Origin: a virus
IMG/VR virus record: IMGVR_UViG_3300033153_007378
Coordinates: 1 to 34,012 of that record
Strand: one strand, 5' to 3'
DNA length: 34,012 nt
Within the stretch, counting starts at the first letter, position 1. The number at the start of each line of letters is the position of its first letter. Below, one piece after another: positions 296 to 7,706 of this stretch. Made by a program: the position numbers and the translations under genes. The notes below the pieces were generated by a model. That model was not told where the DNA came from. It saw only the letters and a list, made by a program, of their open reading frames with translations, and made no database searches.

Positions 296-463
296 TTAAT
301 GATCTGATGGTTTTTTATATCCATCATCATATCGGCTTGTATATGAATCACACTGGCATGGCTTAGTACAGCCACACCTGATGCACGTTCCCTGTTCGCT
401 TGGCGTGTAGCTATCGCACGCACATGGTTTTGAGCATCCACAATTTCTGCATGTCTCCATCAT
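296..463 (-). CDS. Metallothionein-like Cys-rich microprotein (55 aa)
   Basis: The 55-residue product is built from two 22-residue units, each holding CxxCGC(S/T)KPCxCDSYT, which gives ten cysteines in a tiny protein. The Cys spacing (CxxCxC and CxC) resembles bacterial metallothioneins more than an ordinary four-Cys zinc ribbon. An in-frame TTG exists at 490, but ATG 463 has AAGGA seven bases upstream and is preferred. It sits in the distal leftward operon among other Cys-pair proteins, 13 bases before the coiled-coil gene. Metal binding is inferred from the cysteines only; no family was recognised with certainty. Confidence 0.65.
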   Translation of the reverse strand: MMETCRNCGCSKPCACDSYTPSEQGTCIRCGCTKPCQCDSYTSRYDDGYKKPSDH

Positions 464-571
464 ACTTCCTTCCTTTGGCCCCGCGTCCAACGTATCTTTT
501 TCAATTTACTGGCCACGGTGGGCAGATACTTAGCTCCAGGTTGCTAGACGCGGGGCGCGTTCGTGGTTCAA

Positions 572-2456: not shown

Positions 2457-3350
2457 TTATCGAACATTGACCTTCGTTTTCTTCTGGATCGCCAGGCCCA
2501 GGATCTTCGGCACCTCAATCCCTCGGTTGTACTGTGCCCTGATTTCTGCCATAACCGCGGAGCGTCTCACCTCAAGGAATTTCCCCGGCACTTTCTCGAT
2601 ATCAAGGACCGCGAAATCCCAATCGACCGTTGCCGTTGTTGACGCATGAGCGGTCTGGGTTTTCTGCAAAAACGGTTTCTGGATCTGTTCCTCTGCCTGT
2701 GTCACCTTATCAGCCTGGTCTAGCACCTGGTCGGCGATCTCCGGTGCCCCCATTTCTTCGAGCTTCTCCGCGTTTCGAAGGGCCTGCTCTTCTCGTTCTC
2801 GCCGTTCCCGCTCTAGGCGTTCCCGCTCTTTCCTTCGCTCTTCATCGAGCCATGCGGCCTGTCGCCTTCCGAGTGCTGCGTCTGCTTTCTCAAGCGGCAG
2901 CCGGATTTCGCGGCAATGGGCGTCAATGGCCGACGTGTATTTCTTGATCGGAGCGACGATTGATTTCCTGGTCTCTTCGAGGCTCTTCTTCAGCTGCCTC
3001 ATGCGCTTTCGGATCTCTGATGCCTCGTTATACTCGACCTGACTTGTGACCTGCTTCTCTTCAGCGATCACGATTGATCCGGCGATGCTCTTCTCGTATT
3101 GCATCAGCTCGACACTTTGTAACTGGATCACCGCCCGCCGGAGCACCCCGATGTATCGGCCATGCTCGTTCTTCCGGATCTCGTAGCTGTCACCGTCGGG
3201 GATATTGTAATGCAGCGAGGCCGGGTTCATCTCAAGGTGCTTGCCGTCCATCGAGCCGCCCTCGAAATAGACGCTCACCGATACCCGCTCCCCTTCGTTT
3301 GATGTCGATTCACCACATTGGGTTCGCTGTATATTCTCTTGTTCAGTCAT
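2457..3350 (-). CDS. Coiled-coil protein of phage recombination modules (297 aa)
   Basis: The start is set at ATG 3350, which has GGAGG six bases upstream and overlaps the nuclease gene by eight bases. Residues 1-80 form a separate domain with VSVYFEGGSMDG and YNIPDG. Residues 85-240 are a long charged helix with the family-like pattern of an APIKKYTSAIDA turn followed by LPLEKADAALGRRQ and an Arg/Glu coil. The last 60 residues (VDWDFAVLDIEKVPGKFL, then IPKILGLAIQKK) match the C-terminal signature, roughly 'vP.efl...gv.iPGl.i....', of phage coiled-coil proteins found beside annealing proteins and exonucleases. The biochemical role in that family is not established; context points to recombination or replication. 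Confidence 0.7.
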   Translation of the reverse strand: MTEQENIQRTQCGESTSNEGERVSVSVYFEGGSMDGKHLEMNPASLHYNIPDGDSYEIRKNEHGRYIGVLRRAVIQLQSVELMQYEKSIAGSIVIAEEKQVTSQVEYNEASEIRKRMRQLKKSLEETRKSIVAPIKKYTSAIDAHCREIRLPLEKADAALGRRQAAWLDEERRKERERLERERREREEQALRNAEKLEEMGAPEIADQVLDQADKVTQAEEQIQKPFLQKTQTAHASTTATVDWDFAVLDIEKVPGKFLEVRRSAVMAEIRAQYNRGIEVPKILGLAIQKKTKVNVR

Positions 3351-3903
3351 CTTGTTCCTCCTTCTTTGCAAACTCCCATCCTGGAATGATGTGCGAGAGC
3401 TTGCGTTCGATTTGTTTGTAACGCTTCCAGTCGATCACCTCGATCGGGATCTCCGGAAAGAACTTCCCCATCCGCCCGAGCGCCGTCTTGCTCCGCTTGT
3501 CCATCCAGCCCTTGAGCTCGTGGAAGGTGAAGTTTCGGTTGGAGTAGAGCAGCAGATAGTCCGGCGTGTAATTGGTAACGCCTCGGCTCACCGGAAACCA
3601 GAACGTACAGGGTTCATAGAGCCAGTTGACCAGCGGCGGAGAATCCTGGGAAACGATCCGCCGGCTGCGGAGCAGTTCCAAGAATCGTGCCCAGTTTGCT
3701 TCCCCTTTTGAGTTGAAATGAATCTCAGCAATTGGCTCCCTTGCTCTTGGCATTGGTGGACAGGCCAAGATCATTTTAGCGACATCCTGTTTCCACCGAT
3801 GGAATCCGTAGATGGATCGCCGGCCAGCCTGGGTGCCTTTTTTGCCCACCAGCAGCCCCGAGGTGTTCCTGCCTCGTTTAAAATGGGAGCCCGTCGTCGT
3901 CAT
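3343..3903 (-). CDS. DUF1064-like PD-(D/E)XK nuclease (186 aa)
   Basis: The product shows the DUF1064 pattern: FNSKGEANWARFLELL (Glu68), WLYEPCTFWFPVSRGVTNYTPDYLLL (Asp115) and FHELKGWMDKRSKT (Glu129, Lys131). E...D...ExK is the catalytic layout of PD-(D/E)XK/VRR-NUC-type nucleases, so DNA endonuclease or resolvase activity is likely. The first 35 residues are basic. ATG 3903 has AAAGGAG upstream; an ATG at 3909 is too close to it. It overlaps the SSB-tail gene upstream by 26 bases and the coiled-coil gene downstream by eight. That tight packing suits a DNA recombination module. Confidence 0.75.
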   Translation of the reverse strand: MTTTGSHFKRGRNTSGLLVGKKGTQAGRRSIYGFHRWKQDVAKMILACPPMPRAREPIAEIHFNSKGEANWARFLELLRSRRIVSQDSPPLVNWLYEPCTFWFPVSRGVTNYTPDYLLLYSNRNFTFHELKGWMDKRSKTALGRMGKFFPEIPIEVIDWKRYKQIERKLSHIIPGWEFAKKEEQDD

Positions 3904-4621
3904 ACTCATCTCCTTTCGTTTCCTCGGCACCGGCAGGAACGGGCACCGCTTCGCGATCCAGGGATGGATCGGTGGAAGGCTCGCGTTGGGCAGGACGAGG
4001 CGACGCCTCACTCCCTACCTTAGCCGAGGTTTTGTATTGTGGAAGCGGCAGTCCCTTGCCGCTCATCTTCTTGTACACACGCTCGAGCACACGGCTCACG
4101 ACGCCCATTGCCTGCTCGGGATCAGTCAGTTGGAACTCTGTCGGCTTCCCTTTGCCGTCTGCATCGTACTGGATCCACTTGTGGGTGTCGGGGCACCGAT
4201 AACTTTGGCGCACCTTTTTGCAGAGCTCGGCATACTTGCGCCGGTTGAAGTCTCGGACCTGGGCCTCCGTCTCGAGTACTGCGGTGGGCAACCGGAGATC
4301 ATCGGGCAGGTCAGTATATCTCTGCACCTTGAAACCACCGCGCCTGGAACGCTGCTGAAGGTACTCTCCGATCTCGCAAAGGCACGAGGCCATCGCCTCT
4401 CGCACCCGACCCTCCTTGTTCACGTAGGAATATCGCAGCAGCCCACCTTCATCGTTCCCGTCTCGTTTCACCCGACCGCCGCAGATGAGGCAGGCAACAT
4501 ACATCACTCTCGTGTGACGCCCATCGAGACTCCGGAGCTCGACCTCGTGCTCGTTCAAATCGGGATCCAGCTTTTCAAGCGGCTCCCTGCCTCTCTTTTT
4601 GGGTGATCCCTTTGCCTTCAA
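3878..4621 (-). CDS. Cys-containing protein with SSB-like acidic C-terminal tip (247 aa)
   Basis: The last residues are DEYDDDGLPF, strikingly like the DDDIPF tip with which bacterial SSB recruits RecQ, PriA, ExoI, RecO and others. A low-complexity Pro/Glu/Ala linker of about 45 residues precedes it, as in SSB. The N-terminal 150 residues do not read as a clear OB fold. They hold a CLICGG pair near residue 44 and a CLC near residue 80, and so may bind zinc. The start is TTG 4621 with AGGGGG seven bases upstream and a stop codon just before it. It lies between the replication initiator and the nuclease. It could be a divergent phage ssDNA-binding protein or an adaptor mimicking SSB. Confidence 0.65.
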   Translation of the reverse strand: MKAKGSPKKRGREPLEKLDPDLNEHEVELRSLDGRHTRVMYVACLICGGRVKRDGNDEGGLLRYSYVNKEGRVREAMASCLCEIGEYLQQRSRRGGFKVQRYTDLPDDLRLPTAVLETEAQVRDFNRRKYAELCKKVRQSYRCPDTHKWIQYDADGKGKPTEFQLTDPEQAMGVVSRVLERVYKKMSGKGLPLPQYKTSAKVGSEASPRPAQREPSTDPSLDREAVPVPAGAEETKGDEYDDDGLPF

Positions 4622-4635
4622 TCAATGGCCCCCTT

Positions 4636-5529
4636 TCAGTTTTTGAACAGTGAATCGGCCCCACGGCCGGAGTCCTCTGCGTGTTTGAGTTTCCGATATT
4701 TCAGAGCAGCGCCGCCCTCCATGATCCTGAAAAAATATCCGACGCCGATATCAATCCGGCCTTTCTGAAGCATTTCTTTGAAAAGCAGTGCTCCGATTGC
4801 CGCGTGCAGCGATGGATACTTTGAGAGTTTTTCGAGGAATTGCAGCCGGACAGACGGGCTCCGAGGATCGCCTTTTTGTGTTTTCATCAGGTGTTTGTAG
4901 ACCTCAAAGATCAGGTCCCGGTCCTCCTCATCGATCTCATCCAGGTCTATCGCCGCTGTGTAATGGTCGAGCAGGTATTGAATCCGCACTTCTCGTTCAT
5001 CGTCCGTCTGCGGTTCGGGCTCCTGAATCGTTTCACTCTCAAGCTCAAGTATCGGCTTCACAGGAGCCATCGCTCTTGTCGGCTCTTCGCCGATCTTGAG
5101 GCTATGGAAAAAGTCCATGATGTAGATGTTTCCAGAGACGCGCTCGTCGTTCTGGTAGATATCAAACCACTCCCGCCAAAACTCCCTAGCCTTGTACGTT
5201 GCCATGTAATCGCTTTTGATGGAGTTTGCGTTCTGCTCGGGCTTCCCGCCCTGTCTGAGCTTATAGAAGGTCCGCCGTTTGTTGAAGACGATTGCGAGCT
5301 CTTCGTCATAGCGAATCCCGTGCAGCCCCCGTTCAGCAACGATTCGCCGGGTTTCATCTATTGGAACAGAGGTGCGAAACGACGCCTCTTCGAGGGTTAC
5401 GATCCAGATCCCGCTAAGCCCCCGGTACCCGGTGATGAAATAGTACCAGAGGCATTTTTCTGCCGGCGACATTTTGAGCCACCAGAGCTTTTGATGCAGC
5501 GAATCGTAGATATCGGTTTTTGAAGGCAC
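4636..5529 (-). CDS. Replication initiator-like winged-helix protein (297 aa)
   Basis: Residues 1-90 fit the N-terminal DNA-binding domain of phage replisome organisers: a helix (SLHQKLWWLKMSPAEKCLWYYFITG), then SGIWIVTLEEASFRTSVP, then RIVAERGLHGIRYDEELAIVFN. The family pattern is 'W.d..f..Lsp.eKl.f.yl.t...sGi'. The middle is acidic and Gln/Pro-rich. The last 110 residues are helical and could load or contact a helicase. The start is GTG 5529 with GGGGAG five bases upstream. It lies ten bases after the Cas4-like gene. The candidate origin it would act on is about 5 kb away, at 10264. No polymerase or helicase gene was found, so host replication enzymes are probably recruited. Confidence 0.6.
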   Translation of the reverse strand: MPSKTDIYDSLHQKLWWLKMSPAEKCLWYYFITGYRGLSGIWIVTLEEASFRTSVPIDETRRIVAERGLHGIRYDEELAIVFNKRRTFYKLRQGGKPEQNANSIKSDYMATYKAREFWREWFDIYQNDERVSGNIYIMDFFHSLKIGEEPTRAMAPVKPILELESETIQEPEPQTDDEREVRIQYLLDHYTAAIDLDEIDEEDRDLIFEVYKHLMKTQKGDPRSPSVRLQFLEKLSKYPSLHAAIGALLFKEMLQKGRIDIGVGYFFRIMEGGAALKYRKLKHAEDSGRGADSLFKN

Positions 5530-5539
5530 ATCAACTCCC

Positions 5540-6538
5540 CTATTCTGTTATCCGCTGAACGTCAACCTTCCAATAACTGCCATCTTGGACCGTGTATCCA
5601 GACCTGGAAACCTCTTTGCCAGTAATGAGGAACGGGCCGATTGATATGTTTGTGAGCCCCTTGAATCGCTCCTTTTTCTTCTTCTCGAGGCGATTGTATT
5701 CGAGATGCAGCGGCTTCAACTCTTCAAGGCGTTCGAGCATCTCTATGACTTCGGGCTCATCAATGAAGATGATGCCATCGTTATTGAGAATATCCGGCAG
5801 GCAGTGCGCTCGGTATCGACAGTCGTTGCAGATCTCGGAATGGCCAACATTGTCATTGATACGATCCGGGATCTCCCCGGCTTCGATCGCTTTGTTTACC
5901 CGCCGGAGCTTCTCTTCGATCCCAACCCATCGCTCCGCATCGAACCAGATGACCAAGATCCGATAATCGCCGGATGAGATGTTACGGAGAATCAGGAAGC
6001 AGACCTCCGTCTCTTCGGCCTTCATGTAACAATGACACTGGTCGATGTATTTCCGATACCACTTTGACCCGTCCAGGTCCTCAACCGTCTGCATCTTGTC
6101 CCATTGATTTTCGACCATTGATTTGATCTCGCCCAGGATCGTGAGGGGCGCCCAAGAGGGAACCAGGATTCCATCGATCTTCCCAGAGACTTTCACCTGC
6201 TCGATCCAGGCCCGGCGCTGGATATGCTCGATCTCGCAACCGATTTCGGCAAATTCTGCCCGGGTGATTTTCTCCTGCTGGCTCCCCTCGTTCATCCGTT
6301 TGAGCCCTCGGATCGGAAACGGCTCTGCGGCCCCAGGCTCCTGCCGGTTGTACCAGAGCTGACGCTCGCAAGGGGAGTCGATGATGCTCGCCCAATGTGC
6401 GAATCGAGGTTCGGCCGAGCCCTTGCCCCATTGCTCTTGCTGTTGTTCCTCGCGGGAGTTCAGCCGGTGTTCAATCGTTTGGGCCAGTTGTTCGATTTCT
6501 TCTCTGCTCGCTGATGCGAGCTGCGCTTCGTGTGACAT
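5540..6538 (-). CDS. Cas4/RecB-like PD-(D/E)XK exonuclease with Fe-S cysteines (332 aa)
   Basis: The catalytic layout is visible: SGKIDGIL (Asp122), ILGEIKS (Glu137, Lys139) and a Q-(x)3-Y motif in DQCHCYM (Gln167, Tyr171). Cys57 in SPCERQLWY and the C-terminal trio Cys237, Cys240 and Cys246 (CNDCRYRAHC) match the four cysteines that hold the 4Fe-4S cluster of Cas4/AddB-like nucleases. About 80 C-terminal residues extend past the cluster. The ATG follows AGGAGG with standard spacing. Beside a candidate annealing protein, the most likely job is 5'-3' resection for phage recombination. No cas1 or CRISPR repeats are present, so a CRISPR adaptation role is not supported. Confidence 0.75.
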   Translation of the reverse strand: MSHEAQLASASREEIEQLAQTIEHRLNSREEQQQEQWGKGSAEPRFAHWASIIDSPCERQLWYNRQEPGAAEPFPIRGLKRMNEGSQQEKITRAEFAEIGCEIEHIQRRAWIEQVKVSGKIDGILVPSWAPLTILGEIKSMVENQWDKMQTVEDLDGSKWYRKYIDQCHCYMKAEETEVCFLILRNISSGDYRILVIWFDAERWVGIEEKLRRVNKAIEAGEIPDRINDNVGHSEICNDCRYRAHCLPDILNNDGIIFIDEPEVIEMLERLEELKPLHLEYNRLEKKKKERFKGLTNISIGPFLITGKEVSRSGYTVQDGSYWKVDVQRITE

Positions 6539-6593: not shown

Positions 6594-7580
6594 CTACATC
6601 GGGCCTTCCTGCTGCGCCTCCCACTCATCGAAGCGGGCAAGGTCCTCGTTCTTTTCGATTGCCTTGATCGCACCGGAGAGCCAGTTGATCCCCCTCTGGT
6701 GTTTAAATGTTGTGATCGATTTTGGATCGGCATATTTATTGCCGTCCTTGGTCGGCTTGTGATAGCTCATATATTTCTCACAAACAGCATCGAGACTCTT
6801 ATACGCTCCGGTCCATTCGAGGAAAGTTCCGAGCGTCATAAATCGATCGATCACGATATTTCGCTGGCCCTCCTCGACCACCGGATTGTTTTGGGACTGC
6901 TGCTTGCCGGTGCCCTTCGTGACTCCGCCGCCCTTCCCGTCCTTCTTGAAATCGACCGTCGTCGAGCCGTCTCGCCGGAAGCCATACGTTTCCAGCTCCG
7001 TCCAGGTGAGGCCCTTCAAAGCAAGGATATTCATGGTGCCGTTCACTATCATGTTCGAGTACGCCTTTTTCTTGACGTGATCTTCCTTCACGTCCTTGAG
7101 GCTCTTGAATTTCTGATCCTTCTTCCCCAGGAAGGCGTCCCTGCTGGAACAGGTCCCGACGCCGTGAAAGATGTCGATGTACGTCCCGATTGGGATTATG
7201 AAGGTGCCGTAGCAGGTATAGATATAGTACGGCCCTTCTTCGTCCTCTCGCTTATCGTACTCGAAATATGGATTGATTACCGAGCCCCCGGCCCGGCGGA
7301 GCATTGCCAGGGCGCCCCCGCTGTCCGGCCTGGGCCTTGCGTCATCGTCTCTGCCGTAGGTTGTCCATTGGCTTGGCCTTACAGCCTTTAAAACAATCGG
7401 ACGAATCTTGGTGAGCATCGTGTCCCGCTCTTCGATAAAAGCGATGTAATGCTCCGCGGTCCTGAACGTGGGGAGCTGTGGCCCCTCCCGGCGGACGACG
7501 GCATACTGCGACACGTCCAATTCGGCGGGCATACCGGGAGCTCCCTGGGGGGACCCCTGTCCGTTTGAGTCGGATGTCAT
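6594..7580 (-). CDS. Candidate ssDNA-annealing/recombination protein (328 aa)
   Basis: This is the first gene of the leftward unit. ATG 7580 follows AGGAGG; an upstream in-frame start at 7694 has no comparable site. After a disordered Gly/Pro/Gln leader, the core has PSQWTTYG, a beta-rich segment (YYIYTCYGTFIIPIGTYIDI), GTCSSRDAFLGKKD and then AYSNMIVNGTMNILALKGLTW. That last helix resembles the 'aytNc..ngitrllGlrn.tw' segment of phage Erf/Rad52-like annealing proteins as I remember them. A Gly/Lys/Gln-rich linker follows, then a helical C-terminus with a WEAQQEGPM tip. Adjacency to the Cas4-like nuclease supports a nuclease-annealase pair. The assignment is by pattern and context only. Confidence 0.5.
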   Translation of the reverse strand: MTSDSNGQGSPQGAPGMPAELDVSQYAVVRREGPQLPTFRTAEHYIAFIEERDTMLTKIRPIVLKAVRPSQWTTYGRDDDARPRPDSGGALAMLRRAGGSVINPYFEYDKREDEEGPYYIYTCYGTFIIPIGTYIDIFHGVGTCSSRDAFLGKKDQKFKSLKDVKEDHVKKKAYSNMIVNGTMNILALKGLTWTELETYGFRRDGSTTVDFKKDGKGGGVTKGTGKQQSQNNPVVEEGQRNIVIDRFMTLGTFLEWTGAYKSLDAVCEKYMSYHKPTKDGNKYADPKSITTFKHQRGINWLSGAIKAIEKNEDLARFDEWEAQQEGPM

Positions 7581-7706
7581 AATCCGTTCCTCCTGAAATA
7601 TGTGGTTGTTTGAATACGGGCCTTCCGTGTTCGCCAGAAGATTTCTATAAGTGGGATCATTTGTCAAGCGGAAAATTCGCTGGCAGGCTGCCATAAAGCG
7701 TAAACC

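Follow-up and report, generated by a model that had tools for sequence, protein, structure and literature searches.

In bacterial genome maintenance, the tails of SSBs serve as a hub. In phage HK620, both the loading and the stimulation of Sak4 require the last six residues (NDYPPF) of the phage SSB (PMC5928155). Similarly, efficient annealing needs the last seven residues of SSB-80alpha as well as the C-terminal domain of Sak (PMC11846896). The C-terminus of Red-beta contacts SSB (PMC9870868), and, for RecT-type annealases, host range has been tied to the final residues of the host SSB (PMC10711431).

The window analysed here, a stretch of 34,012 bases corresponding to one virus record, carries tailed-phage structural genes (terminase, portal, tape measure and amidase) on the plus strand, and replication and recombination genes arranged in a leftward operon at about 2.4–7.7 kb. 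One gene of this operon (3878..4621, minus strand) encodes P0001, a 247-residue protein which, as judged by its ORF, codon score and composition, consists of a basic Cys-containing body, a disordered linker and an SSB-type tip. The gene starts with a TTG at 4621, immediately downstream of the Shine-Dalgarno-like sequence AAAGGGGG, and stops at 3878-3880, and the C-terminus of the product reads ...PVPAGAEETKGDEYDDDGLPF. The frame is stop-free and, when all six frames are scored against the codon usage of this phage, ranks highest (0.102 vs 0.015 for the next frame). An antisense ORF of 264 aa (3812-4606, plus strand) was considered as the real gene and was rejected on codon usage and gene order.

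Residues 1-195 of P0001 have a pI of 9.4, and the second half is rich in Lys and Arg. Cysteines are found at C44/C47 (CxxC), C80/C82 (CxC), C134 and C143; the segment from CxxC to CxC (4376..4492, minus strand) is a putative metal-binding region, as read from the residues themselves. A duplicated Cys motif (CGCSKPCACDSYT / CGCTKPCQCDSYT) occurs in a separate 64-aa ORF of the window (296-490, minus strand). The body of P0001 is followed by a linker (residues 196-236; 3914..4036, minus strand), 68% of which is made of P, A, E, S, T, Q and G, and by the tip GDEYDDDGLPF (residues 237-247), which features five acids and no base and is encoded, together with the stop codon, at 3878..3913 on the minus strand. 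The order basic body, disordered linker and acidic tip ending in PF resembles the layout of an SSB.

The P0001 tip is above chance. In Monte Carlo simulations based on phage codon usage, random free C-termini match an SSB tip with a frequency of 1.2e-5. The last 11 codons of P0001 also hold the Shine-Dalgarno (AAAGGAG, 3910-3916, minus strand) and the ATG (3903) of the following, resolvase-like gene. Because the tip codons double as the start signals of that gene, the simulation was rerun with both elements forced in; the frequency was 1.6e-5, so that either way the tip is expected at about 1.5e-5 per C-terminus, and a tip imposed by the overlap with the next gene was rejected on this basis. 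In phage contigs, the tip is also nearly specific to SSBs. A first search pattern, in which three acids were needed, missed the primases of Hydrogenobaculum phages and was relaxed. The relaxed pattern matches 10 of the 5,618 ORFs of at least 80 aa found in other phage contigs, and it almost marks SSBs, since 9 of the 10 are PF00436 SSBs. The only non-SSB tip in these background contigs belongs to a 116-aa protein ending in GENEIPF (L146:7876-8226).

Judged by sequence, P0001 is not an SSB. Searches of Pfam, PHROGs, NCBIfam and PDB sequences returned neither an SSB or OB match nor a match to any other family, and comparison with PF00436 gave nothing at E ≤ 1. P0001 has the acidic tip of the SSB family, with its hydrophobic-Pro-Phe end (DDDGLPF), and the flexible low-complexity linker, and lacks an OB-fold domain recognizable by the PF00436 model. 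The preliminary description of the locus, which had reported an SSB-type tip after a Pro/Ala/Glu linker, Cys pairs in the N-terminal domain and no obvious OB fold, is borne out on all these points. No homolog of P0001 was found in phage records, plasmids, IMG/VR viral contigs or GTDB genome contigs, in the roughly 80 records of related phages traced through portal, terminase, annealase and exonuclease, or among the six-frame ORFs of all loci. The sole close relative of the phage that was found is an 8.3-kb contig (terminase identity 49%), and the P0001 region falls outside this contig. The AlphaFold model obtained from the single sequence had a pLDDT of 38 and was discarded.

P0001 had also been placed between a replication initiator and two nucleases, a claim that holds in part. 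The Cas4-type (PD-(D/E)XK) exonuclease (5540..6538, minus strand) is solid, as evidenced by the match to phrog_1990 (E=2e-25) and by alignment. The gene following P0001 (3343..3903, minus strand) matches a Holliday junction resolvase family (phrog_9019) weakly, with E=0.002; its start is most likely the ATG at 3903, picked by Shine-Dalgarno spacing, and it overlaps the tip codons by 26 nt. The gene upstream of P0001 (4636..5529, minus strand), separated from it by 14 nt, is a plausible replication initiator: its product has an N-terminal pattern that we take to be replisome-organiser/initiator-like, and Pfam, PHROG, NCBIfam and phage records contain no convincing match to it. Another gene of the operon, with a coiled-coil-like centre (2457..3371, minus strand), matches phrog_10477 (E=4e-11). 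Its product is similar to L005:6325-6930 (phmmer, E=7e-9), the gene for which directly precedes the annealase gene in L005, and may be a further member of the recombination module. No PF00436 SSB was found in the 34,012 bases of the record, which may be incomplete. Overall, the reading offered in the preliminary description is supported in part: the data back an SSB-like tip on a non-SSB protein inside a replication and recombination module, and the proposed new ssDNA-binding protein and the decoy are candidates.

The gene paired with that of the exonuclease (6594..7694, minus strand) encodes a protein with no usable family match, and the family to which it belongs has no Pfam or PHROG entry. 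Its AlphaFold model, obtained from an alignment of 8 sequences, is of moderate quality (pLDDT 68-90 over residues 81-240) and displays the beta-sheet and long helix of the RAD52 fold. In Foldseek searches, the best PDB match of the model is human RAD52 with ssDNA (E=1.3e-3, probability 1.00), and matches in BFVD include RecT, ERF, Rad52 and annealing proteins. On the strength of the model, the protein is a RAD52-superfamily single-strand annealing protein; its fold and its pairing with an exonuclease suggest that it anneals strands. The annealase family is rare, as relatives were found in 3 of 50,697 phage records. It includes, besides the window protein, L001:6874-7710, L004:7905-8846, L005:6968-7819 and members in L160-L163, and an alignment of five members contained no conserved stretch fit for searching. 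Annealase and exonuclease occur together in both viral and bacterial genome contigs. For instance, searching with the exonuclease gave 10 viral contigs, Hydrogenobaculum phage 1 (L010) among them, and 9 of these carry the annealase too; the reference phage MW202801 carries both genes, and four GTDB genome contigs found via the annealase carry the exonuclease as well.

SSB tips are present on other proteins of phages carrying this module. The L004 annealase has a tip of its own (NKDDDIPF), as if an annealase and an SSB tail had been fused, while the L005 annealase ends in a weak, degenerate version (IGDIEF). In Hydrogenobaculum phage 1 and three relatives, the tip is found on the Prim-Pol/DUF927 protein adjoining the annealase (L002:11771-14494, L008:3982-6714, L012:3971-6715 and L013:3989-6712), with the endings EDDIPF, DDGIPF, DDGIPF and DDNLPF. 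These four proteins share 84-94% identity with one another's reference; their linkers differ in length and sequence, and the tip is kept. Altogether, 6 of 923 module ORFs carry tips, all on non-SSB proteins, versus the single non-SSB tip among the 5,618 other ORFs, a clustering that represents three lineages (the L004 annealase, the Prim-Pol/DUF927 proteins and the orphan P0001) and small numbers, one lineage being the ascertained window itself. No tip was found on an SSB in the module-bearing records. A PF00436 gene is absent from 11 of the 12 module records; since most records are fragments, SSB genes may lie outside them. The twelfth record encodes an ordinary SSB with the tail ...ASEASVPF; together with several module phages that lack a tip altogether, this indicates that the tip is not obligatory. 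Because distant phages with the same pair bear the peptide on other non-SSB proteins, this docking peptide seems capable of passing from one replication or recombination protein to another. We consider it close to an even chance that, in scattered phages sharing the rare RAD52-type annealase and the Cas4-type exonuclease, the SSB tail has been split off from SSB and attached to any available protein of replication or recombination (annealase, Prim-Pol helicase or basic Cys-containing orphan), so that the phage supplies the SSB-tail signal without an SSB.

We propose, with a probability of about 40%, that P0001 is a phage recombination and replication adaptor with a detached SSB tail. This is the simplest reading, because a non-SSB protein with an SSB tail adjoins a RAD52-type annealase and phage annealases need SSB tails. 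The basic, probably metal-binding body would sit on phage ssDNA or on a DNA-bound complex, and the long flexible linker would present DDDGLPF, which may dock into the pocket used by SSB tails. The nearest expected client would be the phage's RAD52-fold annealase (6594-7694); the tail would bring it onto strands that the Cas4-type exonuclease (5540-6538) has resected, much as phage SSBs bring in Sak4 and the Sak protein of 80alpha. Host proteins that read SSB tails (RecO, PriA, DnaG) may be second clients. That the body binds DNA, which protein is the client and that there is binding of any kind are our inference.

Among the other explanations, the one that survives best, though we regard it as unlikely, gives P0001 an accessory role in the primosome or in helicase loading, in concert with the upstream initiator-like protein. 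The tip would then compete with SSB for DnaG, PriA or a similar protein, or couple the initiator to SSB-coated origin DNA. The 14-nt distance between the two genes fits this idea, as does the occurrence of the tip on a Prim-Pol/DUF927 replication protein in Hydrogenobaculum phages; moreover, E. coli SSB tails bind DnaG and RecO (PMC5872125, PMC7913777). However, P0001 has no Walker A motif (G-x4-G-K-[ST]) and no Pfam match, and hence lacks the AAA+ signature of DnaC/DnaI-type helicase loaders; the initiator assignment of 4636-5529 is itself putative, and there is no P0001 homolog to back a conserved pairing.

It is less likely still that P0001 is a highly diverged SSB, the OB fold of which is beyond detection by sequence. 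Tip, linker and context are all SSB-like, and phage SSBs may be very distant from known ones: the HK620 SSB is a distant homolog (PMC5928155), and the Enc34 SSB was counted among proteins of unknown function until its structure was obtained (PMC5686142). However, neither SSB nor OB models in Pfam, PHROGs and NCBIfam match P0001, and the CxxC and CxC motifs, together with the Lys/Arg-rich second half, would argue against a simple OB domain.

P0001 might alternatively act as a decoy, abundant enough to titrate the SSB-interacting proteins of the host and so keep them from its DNA or from defence, and a tip free of SSB could in principle sequester partners of the RecO/PriA type. This we find improbable, as the gene is embedded in the phage's own replication and recombination operon and the tip elsewhere sits on working enzymes, not on small decoys. 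Last in order, a functionless tip, the by-product of reading through the Shine-Dalgarno and start of the next gene (GGA-GAT-GAG = GDE), accommodates the 11 shared codons and is nonetheless very improbable, given the rarity of matches in simulations with the overlap fixed, the SSB-like linker upstream of the overlap, and the location of the L004 and Hydrogenobaculum-phage tips outside gene overlaps.

A phage with the tail on its own annealase, or on an adaptor devoted to that purpose, would be independent of the host SSB tail. Such independence could help annealases to function in more laboratory species, and the rare annealase and exonuclease are a candidate new recombineering pair. Being present on an orphan protein and again on unrelated proteins of phages that share the pair, the tip is no longer an isolated curiosity and forms a pattern open to testing.

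DdrB of Deinococcus is a non-classical ssDNA-binding annealing protein that is used alongside SSB; to our knowledge, no sequence link connects it to P0001. The tip of bacterial and phage SSBs (SSB-Ct, DDDIPF) resembles that of P0001, being acidic, ending in hydrophobic-Pro-Phe and following a flexible linker. In contrast to SSB, the body of P0001 has no detectable OB/PF00436 domain and features CxxC and CxC motifs. In the Sak4-SSB system of HK620 and the Sak-SSB system of 80alpha, as in the window, an annealase is encoded together with a partner that has an SSB tail (PMC5928155, PMC11846896). The partner is an SSB in these two phages, whereas in the window it is the orphan P0001; furthermore, the window annealase, unlike those of HK620 and 80alpha, belongs to a rare RAD52-type family and is paired with a Cas4-type exonuclease. 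Further parallels are the L004 annealase and, in Hydrogenobaculum phage 1, the Prim-Pol/DUF927 protein: although their bodies are unrelated to P0001, both are, like P0001, non-SSB proteins carrying an SSB tip beside the same annealase and exonuclease pair.
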